A stretch of DNA of 50,121 nucleotides from a virus. The stretch covers positions 1 to 50,121 of IMG/VR virus record IMGVR_UViG_3300012922_000009, one strand, 5' to 3'. The notes beneath the pieces were generated by a model, which was not told where the DNA came from, searched no databases, and was given only the letters and a program-made list of their open reading frames with translations. Position 1 is the first letter of the stretch; every line of letters starts with the position of its first letter. Made by a program: the position numbers and the translations under genes. Positions 14,035 through 30,046 of this stretch are shown here, piece by piece.

Positions 14035-14144
14035 TTGCCTCAGCAGGACTCGAACCTGCGACCTTCCATGTGTGACCGCGTGCAGTTGCTGTCCTCATGC
14101 AGGGCGGTATTGAATGGACGCTCTACCAACTGAGCTACGAGGCA
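14035..14144 (-). tRNA. tRNA with about 37-nt insertion in the anticodon loop
   Basis: The acceptor is TGCCTCG/TGAGGCA (7 bp with one G-U), the D arm is fully canonical (GCTCAGTTGGTAGAGC) and so is the T arm (GCAGG TTCGAGT CCTGC). The anticodon stem TCCAT/ATGGA is intact, but its loop is 44 nt instead of 7. The extra sequence folds with an ACCGC/GCGGT helix flanked by 5-nt loops, recalling an intron. Mature anticodon uncertain. It stands apart from the main array and follows no promoter I can see. Confidence 0.55.
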
Positions 14145-20946: not shown

Positions 20947-21825
20947 TTAGAAGTTCCATTTGTGACGGAGATACGTTTCTACTGCTGCTCGCTGGGCATC
21001 GGGAATGACACTGTTGTAAACAAGCAGTTCAGCTAGACTTCCCACAAACCCGCCTGGCTGACTTCCATTTCCTCGACCGCCAACGAATGTCGGGTTCGCT
21101 GCAAGAACACTTGGCACTCCAGTGAACTGCGCTGTAATACGGTGCATGTTTCTGAGAATCTGGTTCTTGTAAAGCCACGGGATAGCTCTAGTGTTATCCA
21201 GCTGCACAAGCTGTTGTCCGCTGTACGCCCACGACCATAGCGCCCATTCTCCGACGATATTGATACTTGTGCCATCGTTATACTGGTAAACATCAGTAGA
21301 CAATCCTACGCCGCTTTGCCGGAGAATGACGATATTGACTGCGTTGGAAATGGTGAAGAGATCCTGATACTGAAAGATCCCTCCATTGTTGTTGCTCAAG
21401 GCAGTCGTGAGCAGCGTGTCGGTGTTGATCGACCCTGCCAGTCGTGTCAGGCTGATAATCGAGTAAGGATTCGTGAAACCGAGCTTGACGAGCCAGGATT
21501 TCGCTGATTGGAGACATTGCGTCCCACTGAAAGCGACCACTGGGAGACCGTTCTGCCCCGGAACTGTCAGGGTGGGATTCCCGCCACCCGATCCCGAGGG
21601 GCCAAGATCGTTCCCGTTGCCACTTTTGTCTACCCATGCTGTCACACTCGATCCATTCGTGCCGCTCAAGCTCGTGGCGTCATACCACACGAGCAAGTTA
21701 TTGTCGGGCATAGGGTTGAACGCGCCGGGAGGGTCCATAGGAATGAACACCGCCGTGTTATCCGGCGTAGTCGTCTTGTCCAGATCCTTGGGTGCGTCGA
21801 ATGAGCCTGTACGATAGCCTGGCAT
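20947..21825 (-). CDS. LamG/concanavalin-like beta protein
   Basis: A 292-aa protein from ATG 21825. From about residue 35 it reads as a laminin-G or concanavalin-type jelly roll: LLVWYDATSLSG, WVDKSGNGNDL, LPVVAFSGTQCLQ, and the typical end AELLVYNSVIPDAQRAAVETYLRHKW. Such domains occur in tail fibres and surface proteins. It sits between the polymerase and the zinc-ribbon/ATPase genes, is less GC-rich than its neighbours and looks like an inserted cargo gene. The start overlaps the polymerase stop (ATG inside TAATG). Confidence 0.65.
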   Translation of the reverse strand: MPGYRTGSFDAPKDLDKTTTPDNTAVFIPMDPPGAFNPMPDNNLLVWYDATSLSGTNGSSVTAWVDKSGNGNDLGPSGSGGGNPTLTVPGQNGLPVVAFSGTQCLQSAKSWLVKLGFTNPYSIISLTRLAGSINTDTLLTTALSNNNGGIFQYQDLFTISNAVNIVILRQSGVGLSTDVYQYNDGTSINIVGEWALWSWAYSGQQLVQLDNTRAIPWLYKNQILRNMHRITAQFTGVPSVLAANPTFVGGRGNGSQPGGFVGSLAELLVYNSVIPDAQRAAVETYLRHKWNF

Positions 21826-22838
21826 TACATCCCCTTGTGCTCGAACTTGGCCATGTGACCCCAGTTGTGACCCCGCTTCCACTCGACTGGAATGTAGAGC
21901 TCTCGACCGTGGATGGCAAAGCGGCGTTCGAGGAACGGGCTGACCGTGCGGACGAGGGTCGGAATGGCCTCTGGCGGGCTCTGGAACAAGAGTTCGTCGT
22001 GGATCTGGAGGAGCATATCGACTGGCTGGGTCTTGAGGGCGGTATGGACCCGGGGCAAGGCGTGGTTCATGAGCCACGCAATCGTGCTCTGGGGATAGAA
22101 GCTGAGACCCTCCTTGAGACGTTCATCAGGATCAGGGTTGTGGAACGTCCGACGGTAGCCGAAGCAGTTCCAGAGTACCCCATTCTGCTTCTCCAGCTCT
22201 CGACGGGTGGTATCCCACCAGAGCTCCAAGGGATGGAGCTGCAAGAGCTTGTGGTGCAGGACCGTGACCTGATCCTCGGTGAAGTACATCCCTGTCGTAT
22301 CCGCTTCCTTGTTCAGGTTGAGGGTGATCGTCCGTACCTTGGCGGCGTACTGACTGGCATAGCGGATGGTCTTGGCGATGTCCCGCTGGAGTGGCGTGAT
22401 CTCCGTCTCGAACATGAACTTGGCTAGCTCGACATGCGTATCAATGCCAGCTTCGAGCTTCTCTAGGTACTTCCAGTCCTTGGAATAGGCAGCGCAGCAG
22501 AACGCTTCAGCTCCCACGAAGTCGCAGGCCACCAGCTCCATGCCCTCATCAGCAATGAAGATGTCCCGCACCTTGTACTCGGGGTCCAGCTTCGCCACCT
22601 TCTTCTCCATGTTCTGGAGGTTGGTGGACTCGAACAAAAGACTGTCACTGCTGGACATACGGAAGCTGGCCGTGTCCGGGGAGAGCACGGTACGGATACG
22701 GCCATCCTTGCCCGGGCTAAGGCGTTTGTACGTCCCCGCGACCTTGCGGTCCCGGACTCCCTTGAGCATCGGGACTACTACTGACTCCGCCACTGCTCGG
22801 CGTTCGTTGATCGACTTGATCGAGAACCGGCTGGACAT
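21825..22838 (-). CDS. DNA polymerase A, palm and fingers domain
   Basis: A 337-aa protein with the three polymerase motifs of family A: motif A VACDFVGAEAF (about residue 104), motif B RDIAKTIRYASQYA (about 152; Lys and Tyr present) and motif C LLQIHDELLF (about 275). DGRIRT..SSSDS..NLQN at about 45-75 is the thumb-palm junction. The exonuclease half is in a separate ORF (23272-24858), with two genes between. The start at 22838 overlaps the zinc gene upstream by 122 nt. Confidence 0.85.
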   Translation of the reverse strand: MSSRFSIKSINERRAVAESVVVPMLKGVRDRKVAGTYKRLSPGKDGRIRTVLSPDTASFRMSSSDSLLFESTNLQNMEKKVAKLDPEYKVRDIFIADEGMELVACDFVGAEAFCCAAYSKDWKYLEKLEAGIDTHVELAKFMFETEITPLQRDIAKTIRYASQYAAKVRTITLNLNKEADTTGMYFTEDQVTVLHHKLLQLHPLELWWDTTRRELEKQNGVLWNCFGYRRTFHNPDPDERLKEGLSFYPQSTIAWLMNHALPRVHTALKTQPVDMLLQIHDELLFQSPPEAIPTLVRTVSPFLERRFAIHGRELYIPVEWKRGHNWGHMAKFEHKGM

Positions 22839-23022
22839 CCTTCACCCCTTCGTCCTTGATGTCGAGTACCTGTTTGTGCATGTACTGCACGAAGCACATC
22901 GGGCAGCTCTTGAGCCAGATGGTGTTGCCAAGGGCATCCTTGAACTCTAGGAAGTACCACTCTTTCTTCGTGGTGTACCAGATGTGTCCCTTGGGACACT
23001 TGAGCTTACGGGCTTCGCTCAT
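22717..23022 (-). CDS. Small zinc-binding protein between the polymerase parts
   Basis: A 101-aa protein from ATG 23022. CPKGH (about residue 9) and CPMCF (about 41) make a zinc ribbon with an aromatic strand-rich core. The last third is Gly/Ser/Pro-rich and overlaps the polymerase palm ORF by 122 nt, so the functional part may be the first 60 residues. It may bridge the polymerase halves; that is inference. Confidence 0.5.
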   Translation of the reverse strand: MSEARKLKCPKGHIWYTTKKEWYFLEFKDALGNTIWLKSCPMCFVQYMHKQVLDIKDEGVKDVQPVLDQVDQRTPSSGGVSSSPDAQGSPGPQGRGDVQTP

Positions 23023-23270
23023 GAGGCTCTGTCCGAGAAGCAGCGCACCCAGCAAGCGTATTTGCTGTCGTAATCATCATCCACCGCAATCGGAAACAGC
23101 TCGCCCTTCTTCACGTCTCTCTTCTTGTCGTCTTGAAGAGCCTGAAAATAGTCCACTCGGGTGTACTTCCACACGACCCCTTCGTTGTCCAGCGCGAACA
23201 GTCCAGATGGGCCAACGCTGATCTGGATAAATCTTGATGTCCCGGCAGGATCTCTTGGAATGATTTTCAT
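23019..23270 (-). CDS. Small beta protein
   Basis: An 83-aa protein. The segment RFIQISVGPSGLFALDNEGVVWKY is like a single blade of an RCC1- or tachylectin-like propeller. The rest is charged. It lies between the two polymerase ORFs with a 4-nt overlap downstream. Function unknown. Confidence 0.55.
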   Translation of the reverse strand: MKIIPRDPAGTSRFIQISVGPSGLFALDNEGVVWKYTRVDYFQALQDDKKRDVKKGELFPIAVDDDYDSKYACWVRCFSDRAS

Positions 23271-23271
23271 A

Positions 23272-24858
23272 TTATTGCCCTCTCGCCCACCGCAGCACCT
23301 TCTTCAATGCGGTAGCGTCAGTGGTGATCTTGTTATTCCAGATGTTCTTGGGGGCCCCAATGGCCTCGTACAAGAAGGTCTTCATCTGCGCAGGAGAGTA
23401 TGGATTGAAGTGGTACGCCGTGAGCTTGCCCGTACCGCTACAACGTACACAAGGATGGAGCGTCGCTCCGATCTTCTTCCCGGGCTTCTTAGCGTAACCT
23501 GCGCAGCGCCAACACGCTTGGCGGCTGACTGTCCCGCCCCCGCAGCAATCACAGCGCTTCTGCCGAGCAAACGCTGCCACTCCTTCGCGTTGAATGTAGC
23601 GAAGGCCTTCACCTGCGCTGATCTCTTTCGCAGCTTCTGCGCGGGCTTGTAGGGTAGATAGACGATGGTGCTGGAGCTCGACATTGATCCGTACCCCTTT
23701 CAGTTGCATCTCTACCGTTGCGGGGTAGAGAGATGTGGCGAGTTCGTACTGGGCTTGGCAGCCTGCGGCCTCCATCTCGGGGAGCATACAGGCAGCCAGC
23801 CAGCGCGTGACGTAGGCATCGTTCCCGTTCAAGATGAACATCTTCTCGTTGTGCTGGGGATCATCCGGGAGTGGATAGTCCTTCCACCAGGGCAAGTTGA
23901 AGTAGAGGGAGGCGAGGAACGCGAGGCCCTTGCGGCTCATACGGCTGGGCGTAATCGCTTTATCTTCTTCGTCCGTGTCACCAGATCCCGCAAGGTCAGG
24001 CTCCAGAGCCCACCACATTTGTTGTGTGTCGTGATGATAGTGACGTACACGGAGATCATAGAAGAGTCGCATCGCTGGCACGTCGAACCCAGGTCCGTTG
24101 TGTCCAACTTTCGGCACGTCGGACAGAAGAATCTGCTTCCCGTATAGGTCAAAGTAGTGTCCCCACATCGCTACATACGGTTGCATGTCGTCTCCGCAGA
24201 AGCCGCTGCAGAGCAGTGCGGTCATGTCCCACTTCGTCTCAATGTCCCACGCCACCAATCGAGAGTGAAGAATCTTCTCCACTTGGGCTTGGGTCTGGAG
24301 ACGGAGGGGTACCGGGAACGCATCACGGGGTAGATCACCAGCAAGCCAGCGTCTACCTCGACGGAGATCCATTCCCAGTAGATAGCGCCCTGGCGTAGGC
24401 TTGCGGAGCACTCCAGCGGGATGGAGGGTGGTGAGCACCAGACCGTCCGGTGTGTCCCAGAAGTAACCACGACGGTCTTCGATACCTTTGGCTCCAAGGA
24501 TACCCCGCCCGGCAGTCGGCCATCGAGTACCGAGACAGGCGTATGATGCCTCGTTGCCGAGCGTGATAGTAAGGCTAGGCCGGAGTCTTCGACGGAGCTG
24601 TTGAAGCTGCTCAACTCCTTCAAGTACTCTTCCGGGCTCGTGAGCTTTGAAGTCGTTGGCCGGGGGACGCCAGCCACAGACGTTGGCGATGTTGACATCT
24701 TGGCGTCGGAGTCCGACGCTTCCGAGGACGGTGTCGAGGAGTTCCCCGGCTCGTCCAATGAACGGTCGTCCTTCACGTTCTTCATCCTCCCCAGGATCAC
24801 GTCCAATCAACAGGATGTGTCCCGGCTCTGGGTGGTTGATCTCTGGCGGTACGAACAT
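23272..24858 (-). CDS. Uracil-DNA glycosylase / 3'-5' exonuclease / polymerase N-terminal part
   Basis: A 528-aa multidomain protein. Residues 1-190 look like a family 4 uracil-DNA glycosylase: IGRDPGEDEEREGRPFIGRAGELL (about 18-42), NVCGWRPP, TLGNEA and TTLHPAGVL. Residues 200-370 carry a DnaQ-like exonuclease: LVAWDIETK (ExoI), HNGPGFDVPAM (ExoII), NGNDAYVT (ExoIII). From about 430 a cysteine-rich insert (CDCCGGG, CWRC, CVRCSGTG) precedes a thumb-like end (ITTDATALKKVL). It therefore seems to be the front half of a family A polymerase with UDG fused at its N-terminus. Begins in a TAATG overlap. Confidence 0.75.
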   Translation of the reverse strand: MFVPPEINHPEPGHILLIGRDPGEDEEREGRPFIGRAGELLDTVLGSVGLRRQDVNIANVCGWRPPANDFKAHEPGRVLEGVEQLQQLRRRLRPSLTITLGNEASYACLGTRWPTAGRGILGAKGIEDRRGYFWDTPDGLVLTTLHPAGVLRKPTPGRYLLGMDLRRGRRWLAGDLPRDAFPVPLRLQTQAQVEKILHSRLVAWDIETKWDMTALLCSGFCGDDMQPYVAMWGHYFDLYGKQILLSDVPKVGHNGPGFDVPAMRLFYDLRVRHYHHDTQQMWWALEPDLAGSGDTDEEDKAITPSRMSRKGLAFLASLYFNLPWWKDYPLPDDPQHNEKMFILNGNDAYVTRWLAACMLPEMEAAGCQAQYELATSLYPATVEMQLKGVRINVELQHHRLSTLQARAEAAKEISAGEGLRYIQREGVAAFARQKRCDCCGGGTVSRQACWRCAGYAKKPGKKIGATLHPCVRCSGTGKLTAYHFNPYSPAQMKTFLYEAIGAPKNIWNNKITTDATALKKVLRWARGQ

Positions 24859-25570: not shown

Positions 25571-25750
25571 CCGTTGATGCTTCACAACTCTTGCCTCACA
25601 AGAGGGTCTGGGAAGGGTGGCAGACTGGTGGAGGCAGGCGGAGCGGGGGGCTTGCCTACCGTGCGTGTTGTATCTGCCCTTTCGCACAGTACAACCAGCG
25701 GGGCCGACTTCCCATCAGACGACGTACCGCCTTACGCGGTGTACTGTGAG
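25571..25750. other. Spacer between tRNA array and replication genes
   Basis: No convincing gene. It has two hairpins: a 6-bp CTCTTG/CAAGAG at 25588-25604 and a GTACCGC/GCGGTGTAC-like one at about 25723-25744 just after the last tRNA. The latter could end the tRNA transcript. Confidence 0.35.
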
Positions 25751-25821
25751 TTGGAGAGGTAGGAGTCGGACCCACATTCGACGGTTCAAGGCCGTCTGTC
25801 CTGCCATTGGACGACTCTCCA
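25751..25821 (-). tRNA. tRNA-Gln(UUG), C33
   Basis: Acceptor TGGAGAG/CTCTCCA, discriminator A. Anticodon arm GACGG-CCTTGAA-CCGTC has C33 where U33 is almost universal. T loop is TCCGACT, lacking TTC. No CCA encoded. Last tRNA of the array. Confidence 0.8.
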
Positions 25822-25824
25822 GTA

Positions 25825-25893
25825 CAGCGAGTCTAGGTGTCGATCCCAGGACGGCAAGTTTTGGAGACTCGCCTGTACGCCGGTACACTCGCT
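25825..25893 (-). tRNA. tRNA-Trp(CCA)
   Basis: Perfect acceptor AGCGAGT/ACTCGCT, discriminator G. Anticodon loop CTCCAAA. The T loop is ATCGACA (A54) and the D arm is short, giving 69 nt. Confidence 0.8.
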
Positions 25894-25896
25894 ACA

Positions 25897-25968
25897 TGCA
25901 GCAACTAGGAATCGAACCTAGTCTCTCACCCATGTCAAGGGTGCGCGTTCCCATCTCGCTCTTGCTGC
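25897..25968 (-). tRNA. tRNA-Val(GAC)
   Basis: Acceptor GCAGCAA/TTGCTGC. Anticodon arm CACCC-TTGACAT-GGGTG. T arm CTAGG-TTCGATT-CCTAG is canonical. It abuts the deformylase gene stop at 25969. Confidence 0.85.
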
Positions 25969-26397
25969 TCAGTAATCGACGATCAACTTGCCCTTCAAGT
26001 GATCGAGCTCGTGGAGCAGGACTCTCGCCATCAGTCCTGTGGCGTGGATCTGTTCCCAGAGACCGTCCACGCTGCGGTAGTCCACGATCACTTCCAGCGA
26101 CCGCTTCACCGGCTTCGTGATCCCAGGGAGGGAGAGACAGCCTTCCTCCTGTTTGTTCCGGTTGATCGACTGGGCCCGGAGATGCGGGTTGATCAACGCC
26201 AGCTTCTGGTTCTCGATGTTCACCACGATCACTTGCACCGGCTCGCCCACCTGGATCGCGGAGAGTCCTACGCCGATCCCTTCTACTGTCTCGAACATGT
26301 CGTCGATCAATGTCCGAACCCCGTCGTCGATCTCCTTGAGCGGAAGAGACTTCCGACGGAGTGCCTTCATATCGAACTCTACGATGGTGCGCTTCAT
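25969..26397 (-). CDS. def: Peptide deformylase
   Basis: A 142-aa enzyme that removes the formyl group from the N-terminal Met of nascent proteins. All three motifs are present: GVGLSAIQVG (GxGLAAxQ type, about residue 42), EEGCLSLPG (EGCLS, about 86) and HELDHLKG (HEXXH, about 127). ATG 26397 is chosen because the upstream frame runs through tRNA-Ala. At 142 aa it is shorter than bacterial Defs (about 165-170), like phage deformylases. It lies inside the tRNA array, with tRNA-Val directly downstream. Confidence 0.9.
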   Translation of the reverse strand: MKRTIVEFDMKALRRKSLPLKEIDDGVRTLIDDMFETVEGIGVGLSAIQVGEPVQVIVVNIENQKLALINPHLRAQSINRNKQEEGCLSLPGITKPVKRSLEVIVDYRSVDGLWEQIHATGLMARVLLHELDHLKGKLIVDY

Positions 26398-26399
26398 AG

Positions 26400-26473
26400 T
26401 GGAGGCATGGGGATTCGAACCCCAGTCGCTAGTTTGCGGGACTAGCATAATGCCCAGACTATACGATACCCCC
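26400..26473 (-). tRNA. tRNA-Ala(CGC), C33
   Basis: Acceptor GGGGGTA/TGCCTCC has two wobble pairs. Anticodon arm CTAGT-CCCGCAA-ACTAG has C33. T arm TGGGG-TTCGAAT-CCCCA is canonical. Its 5' end is 4 nt from the RNase P RNA-like 3' end. Confidence 0.8.
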
Positions 26474-26477
26474 AAGA

Positions 26478-26680
26478 TGTGTGTTCCGTAGCCGCGATTC
26501 TGTTTTATCCCGTCATCTGTCTAAGCCCCAACCCGGGGTTCTCTAGGGTCAAGCGATCCCCTGTTTGGGTTGCAGCATTGCCGTGGTGCGAACCGCTACC
26601 CGCACTGCTTGGCGTCCCACGTCCCCATTGCTGTCGCGAACTTCCTCAGGTCTCTCGACCCGCGACGGGTCGAACACACA
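26478..26680 (-). ncRNA. rnpB: Compact RNase P RNA candidate (about 203 nt)
   Basis: The RNA subunit of RNase P, which cleaves tRNA 5' leaders. Seen in order: P1, a perfect 9-bp terminal helix (TGTGTGTTC 26680-26672 / GAACACACA 26486-26478); P2, CCCGTC/GACGGG; mini P3, GGTC-GAGA-GACC; CR I GAGGAAG (26641-26647); P4 CGCGA/TCGCG, differing in sequence from the common CCGGG/CCCGG but still paired; a CR III-like ACGGCAATG; P18-like CCCC-GGGTT-GGGG; CR IV AGACAGATGA; CR V ACAGAATCGCGGCTA. The specificity domain is reduced to a short hairpin (GTGCG/CGCAC). Normal bacterial P RNAs are 330-400 nt. It is flanked by tRNA-Gln (1 nt) and tRNA-Ala (4 nt). Not confirmed by a covariance model. Confidence 0.75.
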
Positions 26681-26681
26681 G

Positions 26682-26754
26682 TTGGGGGAGCAGGGGTCGA
26701 ACCTGCACTCTCCGGGTTCAGAGCCCGGCGTGTTGCCAGTTACACCATCCCTCA
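26682..26754 (-). tRNA. tRNA-Gln(CUG)
   Basis: Acceptor TGAGGGA/TCCCCCA with an A-C mismatch at position 3. Anticodon arm CCGGG-CTCTGAA-CCCGG. D arm of the Gln type (TGGTGTAACTGGCAACACG). The RNase P RNA-like 5' end is 1 nt past its 3' end. Confidence 0.85.
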
Positions 26755-26755
26755 G

Positions 26756-26827
26756 TCTGGCTACCGGGAGTCGAACCCGGACTAAGAGGATCGGAGCCTC
26801 TCGTGATGTCCGTTTCACTATAGCCAA
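26756..26827 (-). tRNA. tRNA-Arg(CCG)
   Basis: Acceptor TTGGCTA/TAGCCAG, anticodon loop CTCCGAT, canonical T arm CCGGG-TTCGACT-CCCGG. Confidence 0.85.
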
Positions 26828-26828
26828 G

Positions 26829-26900
26829 TCCGGCTGGTGGGAGTCGAACCCACACTGAAAGGTTCGTAGCCTTTCCGTCTCTCCGTTAGCTTACAGCCGA
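26829..26900 (-). tRNA. tRNA-Arg(ACG)
   Basis: Acceptor TCGGCTG/CAGCCGG, anticodon loop CTACGAA, T arm GTGGG-TTCGACT-CCCAC. The A34 would be expected to be read as inosine by host TadA. Confidence 0.85.
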
Positions 26901-26901
26901 G

Positions 26902-26974
26902 TTGGACTCCACGGAATCGAACCGCAGCCTGCTGCTTTTCAGGCAGCCGTGCGCACCAGCTACACCAGAATCCA
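26902..26974 (-). tRNA. tRNA-Phe(GAA)
   Basis: Acceptor TGGATTC/GAGTCCA, anticodon arm GCTGC-CTGAAAA-GCAGC, T loop TTCGATT. Confidence 0.85.
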
Positions 26975-26975
26975 G

Positions 26976-27044
26976 ACCGCTCGGAGGGACTCGAACCCTC
27001 ATTGCTCCGGTAGAAACGGAGTCGCTGTCCATCAGCACGAGCAG
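26976..27044 (-). tRNA. tRNA-Arg(UCU)
   Basis: Acceptor CTGCTCG/CGAGCGG, anticodon arm CTCCG-TTTCTAC-CGGAG, canonical T arm. The D arm is short (69 nt total). Confidence 0.8.
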
Positions 27045-27045
27045 A

Positions 27046-27300
27046 TTAGTGACGCTCTCGCCACCAACAGCTGGTGGGGCGTCCGATCACTGCTTCCCCG
27101 TATACCTTCCGTGTGACGAAGCACACCATCACGGGGCTTCCTACTGCTTGCAACCAATACGCTTCGGTCCCGGTTCCATCATAGCTCCGTGGCCAGTAGG
27201 CACGTACAGGGCAGCTGGGGCTCGACACGTCTGGACAGTAGCCCATGTCCTTCACTGTCAGGCCCTGTGTCATCAGGAGAGCTGCGAGCCAGGTCCACAT
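27046..27300 (-). CDS. Small exported or membrane-anchored protein in the tRNA array
   Basis: An 84-aa ORF between tRNA-Asp and tRNA-Arg. The N-terminus MWTWLAALLMTQGL is a short hydrophobic anchor. It has several cysteines and a WWRERH end. There is no strong ribosome site because it starts 2 nt from a tRNA 3' end, so processing would make its mRNA leaderless. Unknown function. Confidence 0.45.
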   Translation of the reverse strand: MWTWLAALLMTQGLTVKDMGYCPDVSSPSCPVRAYWPRSYDGTGTEAYWLQAVGSPVMVCFVTRKVYGEAVIGRPTSCWWRERH

Positions 27301-27301
27301 A

Positions 27302-27375
27302 CGCGACTGGAGGGATTCGAACCCTCGCTCTTCTCCGTGACAGGGAGATGGCTTGGACCGCTAGCCGACAATCGC
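27302..27375 (-). tRNA. tRNA-Asp(GUC)
   Basis: Acceptor GCGATTG/CAGTCGC, discriminator G as usual for Asp. Anticodon loop CTGTCAC. T arm GAGGG-TTCGAAT-CCCTC. Confidence 0.85.
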
Positions 27376-27377
27376 AT

Positions 27378-27476
27378 TGAGATAGTTTACTGTCATATCT
27401 CAGGACTATGTTCTCTTCACTACTCCACAACGACACAACCAGTACCGACTTGCACCCCACGGATAAATAATCCGTG
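27378..27476 (-). ncRNA. Structured spacer with two hairpins
   Basis: Hairpins TGAGATA/TATCTCA (27378-27402) and CACGGAT/ATCCGTG with a 5-nt loop (27458-27476) lie in a 125-nt gap between tRNA-Asp and tRNA-Ser(CGA). No gene or tRNA recognised. Confidence 0.3.
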
Positions 27477-27500
27477 TCCACCAATGTTTGTGTTTCATAG

Positions 27501-27583
27501 CGGAAGGTCAGAGACTCGAACTCTGGAACCCGTTAGGGCCAGCGGTTTTCGGGACCGTTTCCTCGACCGGCCGGACACCTTCC
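27501..27583 (-). tRNA. tRNA-Ser(CGA), C33
   Basis: Perfect acceptor GGAAGGT/ACCTTCC, discriminator G. Long class II variable arm. Anticodon loop CCCGAAA has C33, and the anticodon stem has an A-C mismatch. T loop TTCGAGT. Confidence 0.8.
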
Positions 27584-27585
27584 AT

Positions 27586-27672
27586 TTATTGCGGCTGTGC
27601 GCTCGCTCCACCATGATCTTCAGGAGCATCTGACAACTCTCGCCATCTACGCACAGCTTCATCTGTTGTCAT
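27586..27672 (-). CDS. Tiny ORF between tRNA genes
   Basis: A 28-aa ORF (MTTDEAVRRWRELSDAPEDHGG..) between two Ser tRNAs. It is amphipathic and helical at its start. No ribosome site is visible, so translation is uncertain. Confidence 0.25.
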   Translation of the reverse strand: MTTDEAVRRWRELSDAPEDHGGASAQPQ

Positions 27673-27673
27673 A

Positions 27674-27764
27674 CGGAGCGTCCAGGATTCGAACCTGGGT
27701 GGGGCCTCTGTGAGACTCCTCTGCGTTAGCACCGCAGCGCATTCAACCGCTCTGCCAACGCTCC
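27674..27764 (-). tRNA. tRNA-Ser(GCU)
   Basis: Acceptor GGAGCGT/ACGCTCC, discriminator G, class II with a long variable arm. Anticodon arm CTGCG-GTGCTAA-CGCAG (G32). Confidence 0.85.
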
Positions 27765-27767
27765 AAG

Positions 27768-27847
27768 TCGTGGACCTAGGGTTCGAACCTAGCATGCCGA
27801 AGCGTCTGGTTTACAGCCAGGTGGGACACCGTAGTCCCTTGTCCACG
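27768..27847 (-). tRNA. tRNA-Tyr(GUA)
   Basis: Perfect acceptor CGTGGAC/GTCCACG. Anticodon loop CTGTAAA. Medium variable arm, as in bacterial Tyr tRNAs. T arm CTAGG-TTCGAAC-CCTAG. Confidence 0.85.
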
Positions 27848-27850
27848 AAG

Positions 27851-27922
27851 AGCCAAGTGCGTGACTCGAACACGCGCTCCCGGTTTACGAAACCGGCGGT
27901 CTACCTGTTAACCTAACGAGGC
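27851..27922 (-). tRNA. tRNA-Thr(CGU) with acceptor mismatches
   Basis: Acceptor GCCTCGT/ACTTGGC has T-T and C-T mismatches at positions 4 and 5. Anticodon arm CCGGT-TTCGTAA-ACCGG. T arm canonical. The first 10 nt overlap the end of the 27913-28074 ORF. Confidence 0.75.
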
Positions 27923-28074
27923 GTAAGCTTCTCGAACTTCTTCAGCACATCCTTGAGCTTCTTCAGCCGGACTCCCTCTGCCACCTGCACGGAGAGTCCA
28001 TTTCGAAGCGCGTTGCCATAGGCCACGCTGGTCTCTAGCACCAGCTCTCGGATCTGCTGCATCGTCAACTCCAT
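27913..28074 (-). CDS. Small basic protein in the tRNA array
   Basis: A 53-aa, very helical ORF (MELTMQQIRELVLETSVAYGNALRN... KKLKDVLKKFEKLTPR). Its stop TAG lies inside the 5' end of tRNA-Thr(CGU), so the tRNA processing cut would remove the stop codon. Its ATG lies 3 nt from the tRNA-Asn 3' end, suggesting a leaderless message after processing. Function unknown. Confidence 0.5.
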   Translation of the reverse strand: MELTMQQIRELVLETSVAYGNALRNGLSVQVAEGVRLKKLKDVLKKFEKLTPR

Positions 28075-28076
28075 AA

Positions 28077-28148
28077 CTGGGACCGGAGGATTCGAACCTC
28101 CATCTCAGCGGGTAACAGCCGCGTGACTTGCCATTCGCCCAGATCCCA
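28077..28148 (-). tRNA. tRNA-Asn(GUU)
   Basis: Acceptor TGGGATC/GGTCCCA, discriminator G, anticodon loop CTGTTAC, T arm GGAGG-TTCGAAT-CCTCC. Confidence 0.85.
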
Positions 28149-28149
28149 A

Positions 28150-28224
28150 TGCAGTCAGGAGGATTCGAACCTCCACTTGTACCACCTTCTCAGGATGGCC
28201 CGTATACCGTTCCGGCATGACTGC
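28150..28224 (-). tRNA. tRNA-Leu(GAG) with short variable loop
   Basis: Perfect acceptor GCAGTCA/TGACTGC. Anticodon arm CCATC-CTGAGAA-GGTGG. Leu-type D arm (TGCCGGAACGG), but the variable region is only about 7 nt instead of a long arm. Confidence 0.8.
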
Positions 28225-28227
28225 GAG

Positions 28228-28301
28228 TCGTCGGTCGAGGATTCGAACCCCGTGTCCCCGGTTTATCAGACCGGTACTCCTACCATTCGAGCTGCCCGAC
28301 G
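28228..28301 (-). tRNA. tRNA-Ile(GAU)
   Basis: Acceptor CGTCGGG/ACCGACG with a G-A mismatch at position 7. Anticodon arm CCGGT-CTGATAA-ACCGG. T arm CGGGG-TTCGAAT-CCTCG. Confidence 0.8.
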
Positions 28302-28304
28302 AAG

Positions 28305-28377
28305 TTGGCCGCGTGGGCAATGATCCCACAACCTATCGGTTAAGAGCCGATTGCTCTGCCAGTTGAGCTAGCGACCA
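28305..28377 (-). tRNA. tRNA-Lys(CUU)
   Basis: Acceptor TGGTCGC/GCGGCCA, canonical D arm (TAGCTCAACTGGCAGAGCA), anticodon arm ATCGG-CTCTTAA-CCGAT. T loop ATCATTG deviates strongly from TTCGAnT. Confidence 0.8.
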
Positions 28378-28378
28378 G

Positions 28379-28462
28379 TGCACCTGGGAGGAGTTGAACC
28401 TCCATGACCTTGCGGTCACTGGTTTCTGAGACCAGTCTGTCTGCCAGTTCCAGCACAGATGC
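28379..28462 (-). tRNA. tRNA-Leu(CAG)
   Basis: Acceptor GCATCTG/CAGGTGC, class II long variable arm (GACCGCAAGGTC), anticodon loop CTCAGAA, T arm GGAGG-TTCAACT-CCTCC. Confidence 0.85.
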
Positions 28463-28532
28463 ATGATCGGTGGGCCGCTAAGCCCTACTCCCTGCCGATC
28501 CAGGTAGACGGTAATGAGCCGTCGGGCCCGAG
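28463..28532 (-). ncRNA. Structured remnant with CAU anticodon-like arm
   Basis: GACGG-CTCATTA-CCGTC (28507-28523) is a perfect anticodon-arm-like hairpin with CAT, followed by CCTG/CAGG and GATCGG/CCGATC helices. The acceptor and D arm are missing. Perhaps a decayed tRNA; see the inverted repeat at 28465-28695. Confidence 0.35.
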
Positions 28533-28603
28533 AGCTAAGAGCAGGAATCGAACCTGCGCTAGCTGCTTACCAAGCAGCTGGTCTACCACTAACCTATCGA
28601 AGC
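28533..28603 (-). tRNA. tRNA-Thr(GGU) with acceptor mismatches
   Basis: Acceptor GCTTCGA/TCTTAGC has the same T-T and C-T mismatches at positions 4 and 5 as tRNA-Thr(CGU). Anticodon arm GCTGC-TTGGTAA-GCAGC. T arm canonical. Confidence 0.75.
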
Positions 28604-28606
28604 AAG

Positions 28607-28679
28607 AGCCAGAGGACGGAGTTGAACCGTCACGATCCGCATTACAAGTGCGGCTTGGCATCCCGATAGCCGCTCTGAC
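28607..28679 (-). tRNA. tRNA-Thr(UGU)
   Basis: Acceptor GTCAGAG/CTCTGGC fully paired. Anticodon arm CCGCA-CTTGTAA-TGCGG. T arm GACGG-TTCAACT-CCGTC. Confidence 0.85.
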
Positions 28680-28728
28680 GTGAAGCCCACCGATCCGCAG
28701 ACCAGGGGCTAGTCTCTTCTATGTACAG

Positions 28729-28801
28729 TGCTGCTCGAAGGACTCGAACCTTCAGTCAGCTGGGTTTGAGCCAGCCCCGTCTACCGTTGCGGCAGAGCAG
28801 C
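28729..28801 (-). tRNA. tRNA-Leu(CAA) with short variable loop
   Basis: Perfect acceptor GCTGCTC/GAGCAGC. Leu-type D arm. Anticodon arm GCTGG-CTCAAAC-CCAGC. Variable loop only 5 nt (TGACT), not class II. Confidence 0.8.
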
Positions 28802-28808
28802 AATGCTA

Positions 28809-28949
28809 CTACTTCTTCCCAGCGTGCTTGAAGTACTCGACCTGCCGTTCCCGCTTCACTGCGGCGGCCTTGCTCCCAGGCTTCGAGAGGGGCTTGCCGG
28901 TCTTCTTGCTCTTCAGAACGAACTTCCCGCCGGTCTTCACGATGGTCAT
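28809..28949 (-). CDS. Small basic phage protein
   Basis: A 46-aa lysine-rich protein (MTIVKTGGKFVLKSKKTGK...) with GGGG before the start, ending in two TAG stops. This looks like a widespread small phage protein type, probably DNA- or RNA-binding by charge. It sits between tRNA-Glu(CUC) and tRNA-Leu(CAA). Confidence 0.6.
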   Translation of the reverse strand: MTIVKTGGKFVLKSKKTGKPLSKPGSKAAAVKRERQVEYFKHAGKK

Positions 28950-28971
28950 ACATTCCCCTTGCACAGGTGAG

Positions 28972-29044
28972 TCAGGAGCAGGGGATTCGCACCCCTGTCT
29001 GGACCTTGAGAGGGTCCTGTCCTAGGCTCCTAGACGAGCCCCTG
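28972..29044 (-). tRNA. tRNA-Glu(CUC)
   Basis: Acceptor CAGGGGC/GCTCCTG, anticodon arm GGACC-CTCTCAA-GGTCC. T loop TGCGAAT lacks the second T of TTC. Confidence 0.8.
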
Positions 29045-29045
29045 A

Positions 29046-29119
29046 TGGCAGAGGAGGGAGTCGAACCCTCGGATTCCAGTTTATGAGACTGGCGCAGGAG
29101 CCGTGCCTGCTCCTCTGCT
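29046..29119 (-). tRNA. tRNA-Met(CAU)
   Basis: Acceptor AGCAGAG/CTCTGCC has an A-C mismatch at 1-72, a feature shared with initiator tRNAs, but the anticodon stem CCAGT/ACTGG lacks the three G-C pairs of initiators. Anticodon loop CTCATAA. Initiator, elongator or Ile2 identity is open. Confidence 0.8.
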
Positions 29120-29123
29120 CTAG

Positions 29124-29195
29124 TTGGCCGACTGGGACTCGAACCCAGACCTTACCGCTTAAAAGGCGGATGTGCTGCGTTCACACTATCGACCA
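29124..29195 (-). tRNA. tRNA-Lys(UUU)
   Basis: Acceptor TGGTCGA/TCGGCCA, anticodon loop CTTTTAA, T arm CTGGG-TTCGAGT-CCCAG. Confidence 0.85.
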
Positions 29196-29196
29196 G

Positions 29197-29268
29197 TTGG
29201 AAATCAGGGGATCGAACCCTGGGCCTCTCGGATGTGAGCCGAGCGCTCTACCGCTGAGCTAATCTCCA
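29197..29268 (-). tRNA. tRNA-Val(CAC)
   Basis: Acceptor TGGAGAT/ATTTCCA, canonical D arm, anticodon arm CTCGG-CTCACAT-CCGAG, T arm CAGGG-TTCGATC-CCCTG. Confidence 0.85.
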
Positions 29269-29269
29269 G

Positions 29270-29341
29270 AGCATCTGGCGGGTGCTGCCCCCGCTGCTTC
29301 CACCTTGGCAAGGTGGCAGTCTGCTGTTGACTTACAGATGC
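29270..29341 (-). tRNA. tRNA-Gly(GCC) with aberrant T loop
   Basis: Perfect acceptor GCATCTG/CAGATGC. Anticodon arm CCACC-TTGCCAA-GGTGG. T stem GCGGG/CCCGC is intact but its loop is GGCAGCA, with no resemblance to TTCGAnT. Confidence 0.75.
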
Positions 29342-29433
29342 AGTACCCGCGTTTAATGAGGTAGCGGGGATCTCAGGACGAGAACCAGGGGCACCATCGC
29401 GAAGCTGTTTACCGTGAGTCGCGATCTCACTCA
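29342..29433. other. 92-nt gap in the tRNA array
   Basis: It holds an ATCGCGA/TCGCGAT 7-bp helix and a minus-strand frame (SEIATHGKQLRDGAPG..) starting at a TTG. Neither a tRNA nor a gene is convincing. Confidence 0.3.
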
Positions 29434-29504
29434 AGCACCAGGCGGGAATCGGACCCGCGTGTCAAGTTTGGAAGACTTGCGCGCAGCCACTACGCCACTG
29501 ATGC
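29434..29504 (-). tRNA. tRNA-Gly(UCC)
   Basis: Acceptor GCATCAG/CTGGTGC, anticodon arm CAAGT-CTTCCAA-ACTTG. T loop TCCGATT (C55). Confidence 0.8.
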
Positions 29505-29507
29505 ACA

Positions 29508-29579
29508 TGGGAGAGGAGGGTTCCGACCCCTCTTCTGGAGTTTGAAGGACTCCTGTCCTAGCCAGTAGACGAATCTCCC
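29508..29579 (-). tRNA. tRNA-Glu(UUC), C33
   Basis: Acceptor GGGAGAT/CTCTCCC with a T-C mismatch at position 7. Anticodon arm GGAGT-CCTTCAA-ACTCC with C33. T stem GAGGG/CCCTC with loop GTCGGAA. Confidence 0.8.
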
Positions 29580-29581
29580 GG

Positions 29582-29652
29582 GGTGCTGTACGGGGTACGA
29601 TCCCGTTCCTGAGCCTTCACAGGGCTCAATGCTTCCATTACACCACCAGCAC
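29582..29652 (-). tRNA. tRNA-His(GUG)
   Basis: Acceptor GTGCTGG/ACAGCAC (G-A mismatch at 7), discriminator C as required for His. Anticodon arm GAGCC-CTGTGAA-GGCTC. T loop ATCGTAC. No encoded G at -1. Confidence 0.8.
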
Positions 29653-29654
29653 AG

Positions 29655-29726
29655 ACAGTAGGGTGGGGATCGAACCCACGTTGCTGGGTTTGCAGTCCAG
29701 CGCCTGAACCACTCGGCTACCTACTG
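29655..29726 (-). tRNA. tRNA-Cys(GCA)
   Basis: Perfect acceptor CAGTAGG/CCTACTG, discriminator U. Anticodon loop CTGCAAA. T arm GTGGG-TTCGATC-CCCAC. Confidence 0.85.
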
Positions 29727-29729
29727 AAG

Positions 29730-29801
29730 TCAGTGATGCAGGAGTCGCACCTGCCTGATCGTGCTCCCAAAGCACGCGCCTGTCTGCTAGGCTAATCACT
29801 G
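29730..29801 (-). tRNA. tRNA-Pro(UGG)
   Basis: Perfect acceptor CAGTGAT/ATCACTG. Anticodon arm CGTGC-TTTGGGA-GCACG. T loop TGCGACT. Confidence 0.8.
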
Positions 29802-29970
29802 AAGGTGACCACTTCATTCGTAGGCTGGTCACCCACCCACGCCAGTTCGTTTCGGACGACTGGCTATCCGATAGAGGAGGAGGAGAGGAGGCGTTGCCGC
29901 CCGCTTCTGCCGGTGAGTTACCCCATCCAGCATGTTGTATATCTGCCCGGGGCAGAGTCTCCGTGTCGAG
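29802..29970 (-). ncRNA. Structured gap in the tRNA array
   Basis: A 169-nt gap containing two strong hairpins: GGTGACCA/TGGTCACC (8 bp, 29804-29833) and GCCAGT/ACTGGC (29841-29864). A 34-aa minus ORF (MLDGVTHRQK..) has no ribosome site. It is large enough for a second small structured RNA. Confidence 0.35.
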
Positions 29971-30046
29971 TCGGGGCTGCTGGAATCGAACCAGCCTGAT
30001 GCCTCGCTTCCGAAGCGAGTGGCCCGAGCCTTGAGCCCGAACCCCG
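29971..30046 (-). tRNA. tRNA-Pro(CGG)
   Basis: Acceptor CGGGGTT/AGCCCCG, anticodon arm CTCGC-TTCGGAA-GCGAG, T arm GCTGG-TTCGATT-CCAGC. First tRNA of the array, about 7 nt from the predicted transcription start. Confidence 0.85.

Follow-up and report, generated by a model that had tools for sequence, protein, structure and literature searches.

A reduced RNase P RNA homologue in the tRNA gene array of a phage

Results

A homologue of RNase P RNA among phage tRNA genes

The 203-nt element that spans positions 26478–26680 (minus strand) of IMGVR_UViG_3300012922_000009, measured from P1 to P1', is in all probability a homologue of RNase P RNA, to a degree that we regard as good as proven. RNase P RNA is the catalytic RNA that trims tRNAs in nearly all cells. 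The analysed stretch of DNA (the window; positions 1–50,121 of the record, 50,121 nt) comes from a virus of bacteria that carries its own shrunken copy of this RNA inside a row of tRNA genes. The universal core elements CR-I, CR-IV and CR-V are present in order, and the pattern defined by their order and spacing has a single occurrence in the window, where shuffled sequences predict 0.01. At curated thresholds Rfam reports only tRNAs in the window and misses the RNase P RNA. The archaeal model RF00373 (RNaseP_arch) aligns with the element over the full length of the model (48.9 bits, E=6e-13; relaxed threshold, 381 nt), with CR-I, CR-IV and CR-V in register, although this score is below the gathering cut-off of 84 bits; the bacterial model RF00010 gave no match to it. 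With z -1.5, the folding energy of the single sequence does not stand out and speaks neither for nor against the assignment.

Secondary structure of the window RNA

All parts described here lie on the minus strand. The RNA is closed by a 9-bp P1, read from the sequence (TGTGTGTTC, 26672–26680, with GAACACACA, 26478–26486) and re-formed with different letters in relatives. Covariation supports P2 (CCCGTCG, 26663–26669, with TGACGGG, 26509–26515) and the P3 hairpin GGTC-GAGA-GACC (26649–26660). CR-I (GAGGAAG, 26641–26647) was placed by alignment, as were CR-IV (AGACAGATG, 26514–26522) and the start of CR-V (ACAGAA, 26498–26503). The 5' strand of P4, AGT[T]CGCGA with the bulged U included (26634–26642), rests on the P4 filter described below and on covariation; its 3' strand TCGCGGCTA (26489–26497), also supported by covariation, sits directly 3' of ACAGAA. 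P5 is formed by CAGCA (26629–26633) and TGCTG (26573–26577), P15 by CCC (26567–26569) and GGG (26527–26529), and P16 by GGGG (26558–26561) and CCCC (26535–26538), all three with covariation; in L144, the nearest distinct homologue, P16 reads GACG/CGTC. CR-III (GCAACCCAAACAG, 26561–26573) was located by alignment. The L15 segment CGGGTT (26530–26535) contains the GGU, the predicted pairing partner of the tRNA 3' end, and a GGU is found in the L15 region of 72 out of 74 phage RNAs. The P6 pseudoknot, GGG (26624–26626) with CCC (26546–26548), is supported by covariation in relatives; in the window itself it amounts to only 3 bp and is assigned by analogy.

Little remains of the specificity (S) domain. 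The covariance model pairs the P7 5' strand CGTGG (26617–26621) with 26582–26586, which is held within a conserved remnant motif (CGGTTCGCACCACG, 26582–26595; alignment and covariance model). What is left is thus P7 plus a short insert ending in the conserved CSGUUNNNACCAC motif, and the rest is gone. P18 is absent from the window RNA and apparently present in some relatives. The window RNA fails the requirement of bacterial type A for a full S-domain (P8–P12); a further type A criterion, a P6 pseudoknot together with P15-P16-P17, is met in relatives, and the window letters agree. P6, P15-P16-P17 and the L15 GGU indicate a stripped type A plan.

The original prediction, made without database searches, had read this element as a minimal RNase P RNA. 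Its sequence, coordinates, 9-bp P1, P2, P3 hairpin, CR-I, P4, CR-IV and CR-V held, as did the statement that almost no specificity domain is present. Two assignments failed: the proposed "CR III" ACGGCAATG is the 3' strand of P7 running into the 3' side of P5, and the proposed "P18-like hairpin" is really P15/P16/P17 plus a strand of P6. P5, P6, P15 and the L15 GGU had been overlooked. The interpretation as RNase P RNA is supported, with catalytic activity remaining an inference.

Covariation and a model built without the window lineage

To assess the structure independently of the window, we used an alignment of 15 compact relatives from which the window, its identical copy L172 and L144 were excluded. 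When covarying helices were sought without an assumed fold, the top runs were P2, P5, P1, P4, P16, P6, P3 and P17, followed by P15. Compensatory double changes were seen in 43 of the 52 base pairs, P4 and the P6 pseudoknot included, and none of 500 shuffles reached the observed covariation values. In the named structure 91.8% of cells are paired, against 33–43% when it is slid. P1 and P2 are built from different letters in almost every relative, and the bulged U of P4 is invariant while the P4 pairs around it are re-formed. Members of the alignment were chosen by P4 pairing and by a detectable P1/P2, so that the least biased evidence is that from P3, P5, P6, P7, P15, P16 and P17. The P4-pairing filter was applied to later relatives; the initial core-pattern scan had none.

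L144 lies in a similar tRNA array. Relative to the window it has P1, P2, P16 and the last P4 pair changed on both sides with compensation, and GAGGAAGTTCGCG, CAACCCAAACAG, TTAGACAGATG and ACAGAA unchanged.

A covariance model built from the 15 relatives scored the window RNA at 126.4 bits (E=1e-32), as its sole match in the window, and also matches most other phage loci. Against 82 cellular P RNA loci the best score of this model was 61.6 bits, and only 17 matches reached E=0.01. Since the window RNA reaches 126.4 bits and the cellular maximum is 61.6, we place it with the phage group. The original prediction would have been refuted by the lack of a significant covariance-model match with P4 and CR-IV/CR-V aligned, or by the lack of covariation in homologues, and it survived both checks.

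Relatives in other phages

Viral contigs were scanned with the P RNA core pattern and then with a pairing filter, which yielded the first phage homologues. The loose first scan gave mostly chance matches, and these were removed by the filter. Scans with CR-IV/CR-V signatures returned 74 and 22 contigs; CR-I with at least 7 of 8 P4 pairs is also present in 81 of 98 signature matches (the window included). At least 70 other phage sequences, some of them from giant phages, carry relatives, and more than 70 metagenomic contigs are among the carriers: the contigs include ones of 300–416 kb, and the huge-phage genome LR756511 (595 kb) carries a relative, while those in LR745206 (634 kb) and LR756501/LR756503 (735 kb) were detected by BLAST only. 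Carrier genome sizes span about 67 kb to 735 kb. BLAST of the window RNA against phages gave only weak short matches, one of which led to the cultured Stenotrophomonas phage DLP6; here an unannotated relative at 105776–106016 of KU682439 lies 7 nt upstream of tRNA-Arg. An RNA identical to that of the window is found in a separate record, L172 (IMGVR_UViG_3300012685_000002, 67410 bp). As a side observation, a terminase gene split across the two ends of the L172 / L221 / L224 contig suggests a circular genome of ~67 kb for the window phage.

At gathering thresholds Rfam missed six relatives in addition to the window RNA, and its RNase P cut-off was reached at the locus of only one relative in 20. 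This one, L150, is a longer relative that matches RF00010 over its full length (189 bits). Longer relatives such as L150 keep more of the molecule, and we infer that the reduction seems to have occurred within the phage group. Almost all phage P RNAs fall short of the Rfam cut-offs and are for that reason overlooked in annotation.

Several further features were noted in these contigs. Smaller phage P RNAs of about 170–180 nt occur at L138:668–838 and L170:3961–4131, on contigs of 180–380 kb; their middle part differs and is cut down further, and the GGU is missing from its usual position. By eye, a tRNA-like sequence is apparently inserted inside the P RNA gene in L127, L125 and L191, and in L055:3095–3410 and L187:4195–4528 the site of the P7 tip within the P RNA is taken up by a small ORF that has a Shine-Dalgarno-like start. 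A phage tmRNA gene (L022:426–1037, minus strand) is apparently interrupted by, or abuts, a group I intron.

A re-paired P4 in the phage RNAs

The window RNA and its relatives share a P4 signature, A(G/A)(C/U)[U]C/GG(C/U)UA. By the bulged U, P4 reads AAG[U]C/GCUUA in 71 of the 86 cellular rnpB genes examined, and the phage form was found in none of the 86. The pairs have changed and the geometry is kept: three pairs, the bulged U, then five pairs. GG(C/U)UA is itself part of the pattern by which the phage sample was collected; the initial scan, whose pattern lacked this element, returned five clear relatives with the phage P4 and a single contig, L016, in which P4 is cellular. Three cellular P RNAs among the rnpB genes compared apparently have another re-paired P4 (AC[CU]UC/GGGUA).

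We also searched 84,980 genomes for the phage signature. Six matches were obtained, of which four were real, all on MAG contigs, and two of these four MAGs also contain an ordinary rnpB. This rarity is in line with the comparison of cellular genes. Near absence from the genomes was dropped as strong proof of phage specificity because the pattern was too strict: its other half is so demanding that, in one phylum, the ordinary cellular form is matched in only 3 out of 198 genomes. That argument was replaced by the direct comparison of 86 cellular genes and by the model scores.

Linkage to tRNA genes

ARAGORN places tRNA-Gln(CUG) (26681–26754, minus strand) immediately upstream of the RNA and tRNA-Ala(CGC) (26399–26473, minus strand) immediately downstream. 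The spacers, originally given as 1 and 4 nt, are 0–1 nt after tRNA-Gln and 4 nt before tRNA-Ala. Both genes belong to an array of 30 tRNA genes (25750–30046, minus strand), the inferred probable substrates, in which 16 of 29 spacers are 5 nt or shorter. The tRNA 3' ends are mostly A73-C followed by U or by the next gene, and an encoded CCA is missing in nearly all. Across 73 P RNA loci, tRNA genes are present at 66 and 845 of 846 tRNAs are on the same strand as the P RNA. The P RNA lies within 50 nt of a tRNA at 33 of the 73 loci, often 2–8 nt upstream of it; at 22 the available sequence has no tRNA on the P RNA's strand up to 300 nt away.

A peptide deformylase gene of the phage (25969–26398, minus strand; Pfam E=7e-38) starts directly after tRNA-Ala. 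This gene points to a bacterial host, and the phage gene content is of bacterial type. Elsewhere in the window, an Rfam tRNA match of 52.7 bits extends over 110 nt (14035–14144, minus strand) and is not reported by ARAGORN, so that an insertion or intron is possible. Two ORFs at 21825–24858 (minus strand) correspond to separate portions of a single family of phage DNA polymerases; a uracil-DNA glycosylase domain is present in the larger ORF, and the polymerase is apparently split by about 430 nt. No matches to the window polymerase were obtained when phages were searched by tBLASTn.

Discussion

Proposed function

Homology, fold, covariation, phage distribution and tRNA linkage are shown by these data. 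The likely function is that of a phage RNase P RNA, reduced to its catalytic domain, that cuts phage pre-tRNAs; transcription, catalysis, substrates and the protein partner are all inferred. In this model the P RNA would be transcribed within the tRNA array and would fold via P1, P2, P4, P5 and the P6 pseudoknot. Cleavage on the 5' side of the pre-tRNA would rely on the P4 metal site, its bulged U and CR-I/CR-V, and the L15 GGU would hold the tRNA 3' end. In an array with so little room between genes (A73-C directly followed by the next tRNA), a single cleavage by RNase P would generate two ends, a tRNA's own 5' end and the 3' end of its upstream neighbour, with completion of CCA left to a nucleotidyltransferase. 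The cut at the 5' end of tRNA-Ala would release the 3' end of the P RNA, which would in this way free itself.

The RnpA protein of the host would probably be borrowed. No RnpA gene was found in 49 phage records by a search that was positive in 10 control genomes, so the phage P RNA must work alone or borrow one. A requirement for host RnpA, raised as a possibility in the original prediction, we judge to be likely, and the question is still open. Several points count against the proposed function: besides the lack of an RnpA gene, the score below the Rfam cut-off and the ordinary folding energy, the T-loop binding site of the S-domain is essentially missing, and the host already has an RNase P, so that the benefit to the phage is not obvious. 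The catalytic domain of E. coli type A RNA cleaves without the S-domain, about 120-fold more slowly, and the P. furiosus catalytic domain, which lacks P18, cleaves without protein, in which case P6 matters (PMC5839562). Such S-domain-free cleavage fits the parts that are kept in the window RNA.

Alternative explanations

One could imagine that the RNA is a decoy, a mimic without catalytic activity that captures RnpA or tRNA-processing factors of the host and thereby inhibits host tRNA maturation. Phages disrupt host machinery, and the lack of an RnpA gene in the phage records and the reduced S-domain would both be in keeping with such a role. However, the parts needed for cutting (CR-I, CR-V, P4 with its bulged U, the L15 GGU and P6) are among the best conserved, a constraint that a decoy does not need, and its association with tRNA genes of the same phage, on the same strand, points to helping maturation; we therefore hold this reading to be very improbable. 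There is similarly little to recommend a purely cis-acting element that cuts only the adjoining tRNA for its own release and has no wider role as an enzyme. The frequent position of the P RNA 2–8 nt upstream of a tRNA would suit it, but the 22 of 73 loci without a nearby same-strand tRNA would not, nor would arrays in which as many as 30 tRNAs share a strand and would be served by an enzyme acting in trans.

That the element is a functionless decaying fragment of a host rnpB, or contamination from assembly, can be all but ruled out. Its shortened form and its score below the Rfam cut-off might be cited in favour, but the idea is contradicted by the pervasive compensatory change, and it has to contend with the identical copy in L172, with the occurrence of a relative in a phage that has been cultured, and with a form of P4 that none of the 86 cellular genes shows. 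Returning to the preferred reading, a catalytic RNase P RNA for phage pre-tRNAs, a bolder version can be formulated: a long-separate phage P RNA lineage with a re-paired P4, whose most reduced form (about 170–203 nt) works in vivo without host protein and which, with tRNA arrays of near-zero spacing, makes up a self-processing cassette where a single enzyme produces the two ends of the tRNAs and also brings about its own release. We consider this extended version unlikely.

Significance and comparison with known systems

RNase P RNA is regarded as a cellular core gene, and here a diverse phage lineage of it is found in tRNA arrays and in a cultured isolate. If catalysis, which is inferred, is borne out, phage P RNAs would add a step to phage control of translation. 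Natural P RNAs cut down to the catalytic domain, with the active-site helix P4 altered, are material for studies of mechanism; they also bear on the reasons for phage tRNA arrays and on the limits of RNase P shrinkage, and with the DLP6 copy the idea can already be put to the test. In the papers on DLP6 (PMC5349666) and on the huge phages (PMC7162821) the main text makes no mention of RNase P, and a 2021 all-Rfam scan of a 536-kb megaphage reported only tRNAs and a tmRNA (PMC8172020). We found no report of a phage-encoded RNase P RNA in the open-licence PMC literature searched; earlier publication elsewhere is not excluded.

Theta (HDV-like) ribozymes beside phage tRNAs (PMC10879173) are likewise phage-encoded with a proposed role in tRNA maturation, but they are self-cleaving, act on the tRNA 3' side and have an unrelated fold. 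Archaeal type T RNA of the Thermoproteaceae shares with the window RNA a degenerate S-domain, a P6 modelled as present and the lack of P18 (PMC5839562, citing Lai 2010). Type T RNA is about 200 nt long, like the window RNA, is encoded in archaeal chromosomes, and belongs to an RNase P that works with several proteins. It had been offered at the outset as a size precedent, which is fair as regards size, but the layout is that of a stripped type A, and the score with the phage model places the sequence in the phage group. Members of this group are carried by tailed bacterial phages and are marked by a P4 signature of their own and by the conserved CSGUUNNNACCAC motif. Archaeal type A (RF00373) is the best Rfam match to the window RNA and P18 is absent as in Pyrococcus; in contrast, the window S-domain is reduced, the score is below the cut-off and the peptide deformylase suggests a bacterial host. 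Finally, bacterial type A (RF00010) has in common with the phage RNAs P1–P5, the P6 pseudoknot, P7, P15-P16-P17, the L15 GGU, CR-I/III/IV/V and the bulged U of P4. It differs in length (350–400 nt as opposed to about 200 nt in phage), in the P18 that the window RNA lacks and the S-domain of which it has almost nothing, and in P4 itself, which is AAG[U]C/GCUUA in bacterial type A and AGY[U]C/GGYUA in the phage group.
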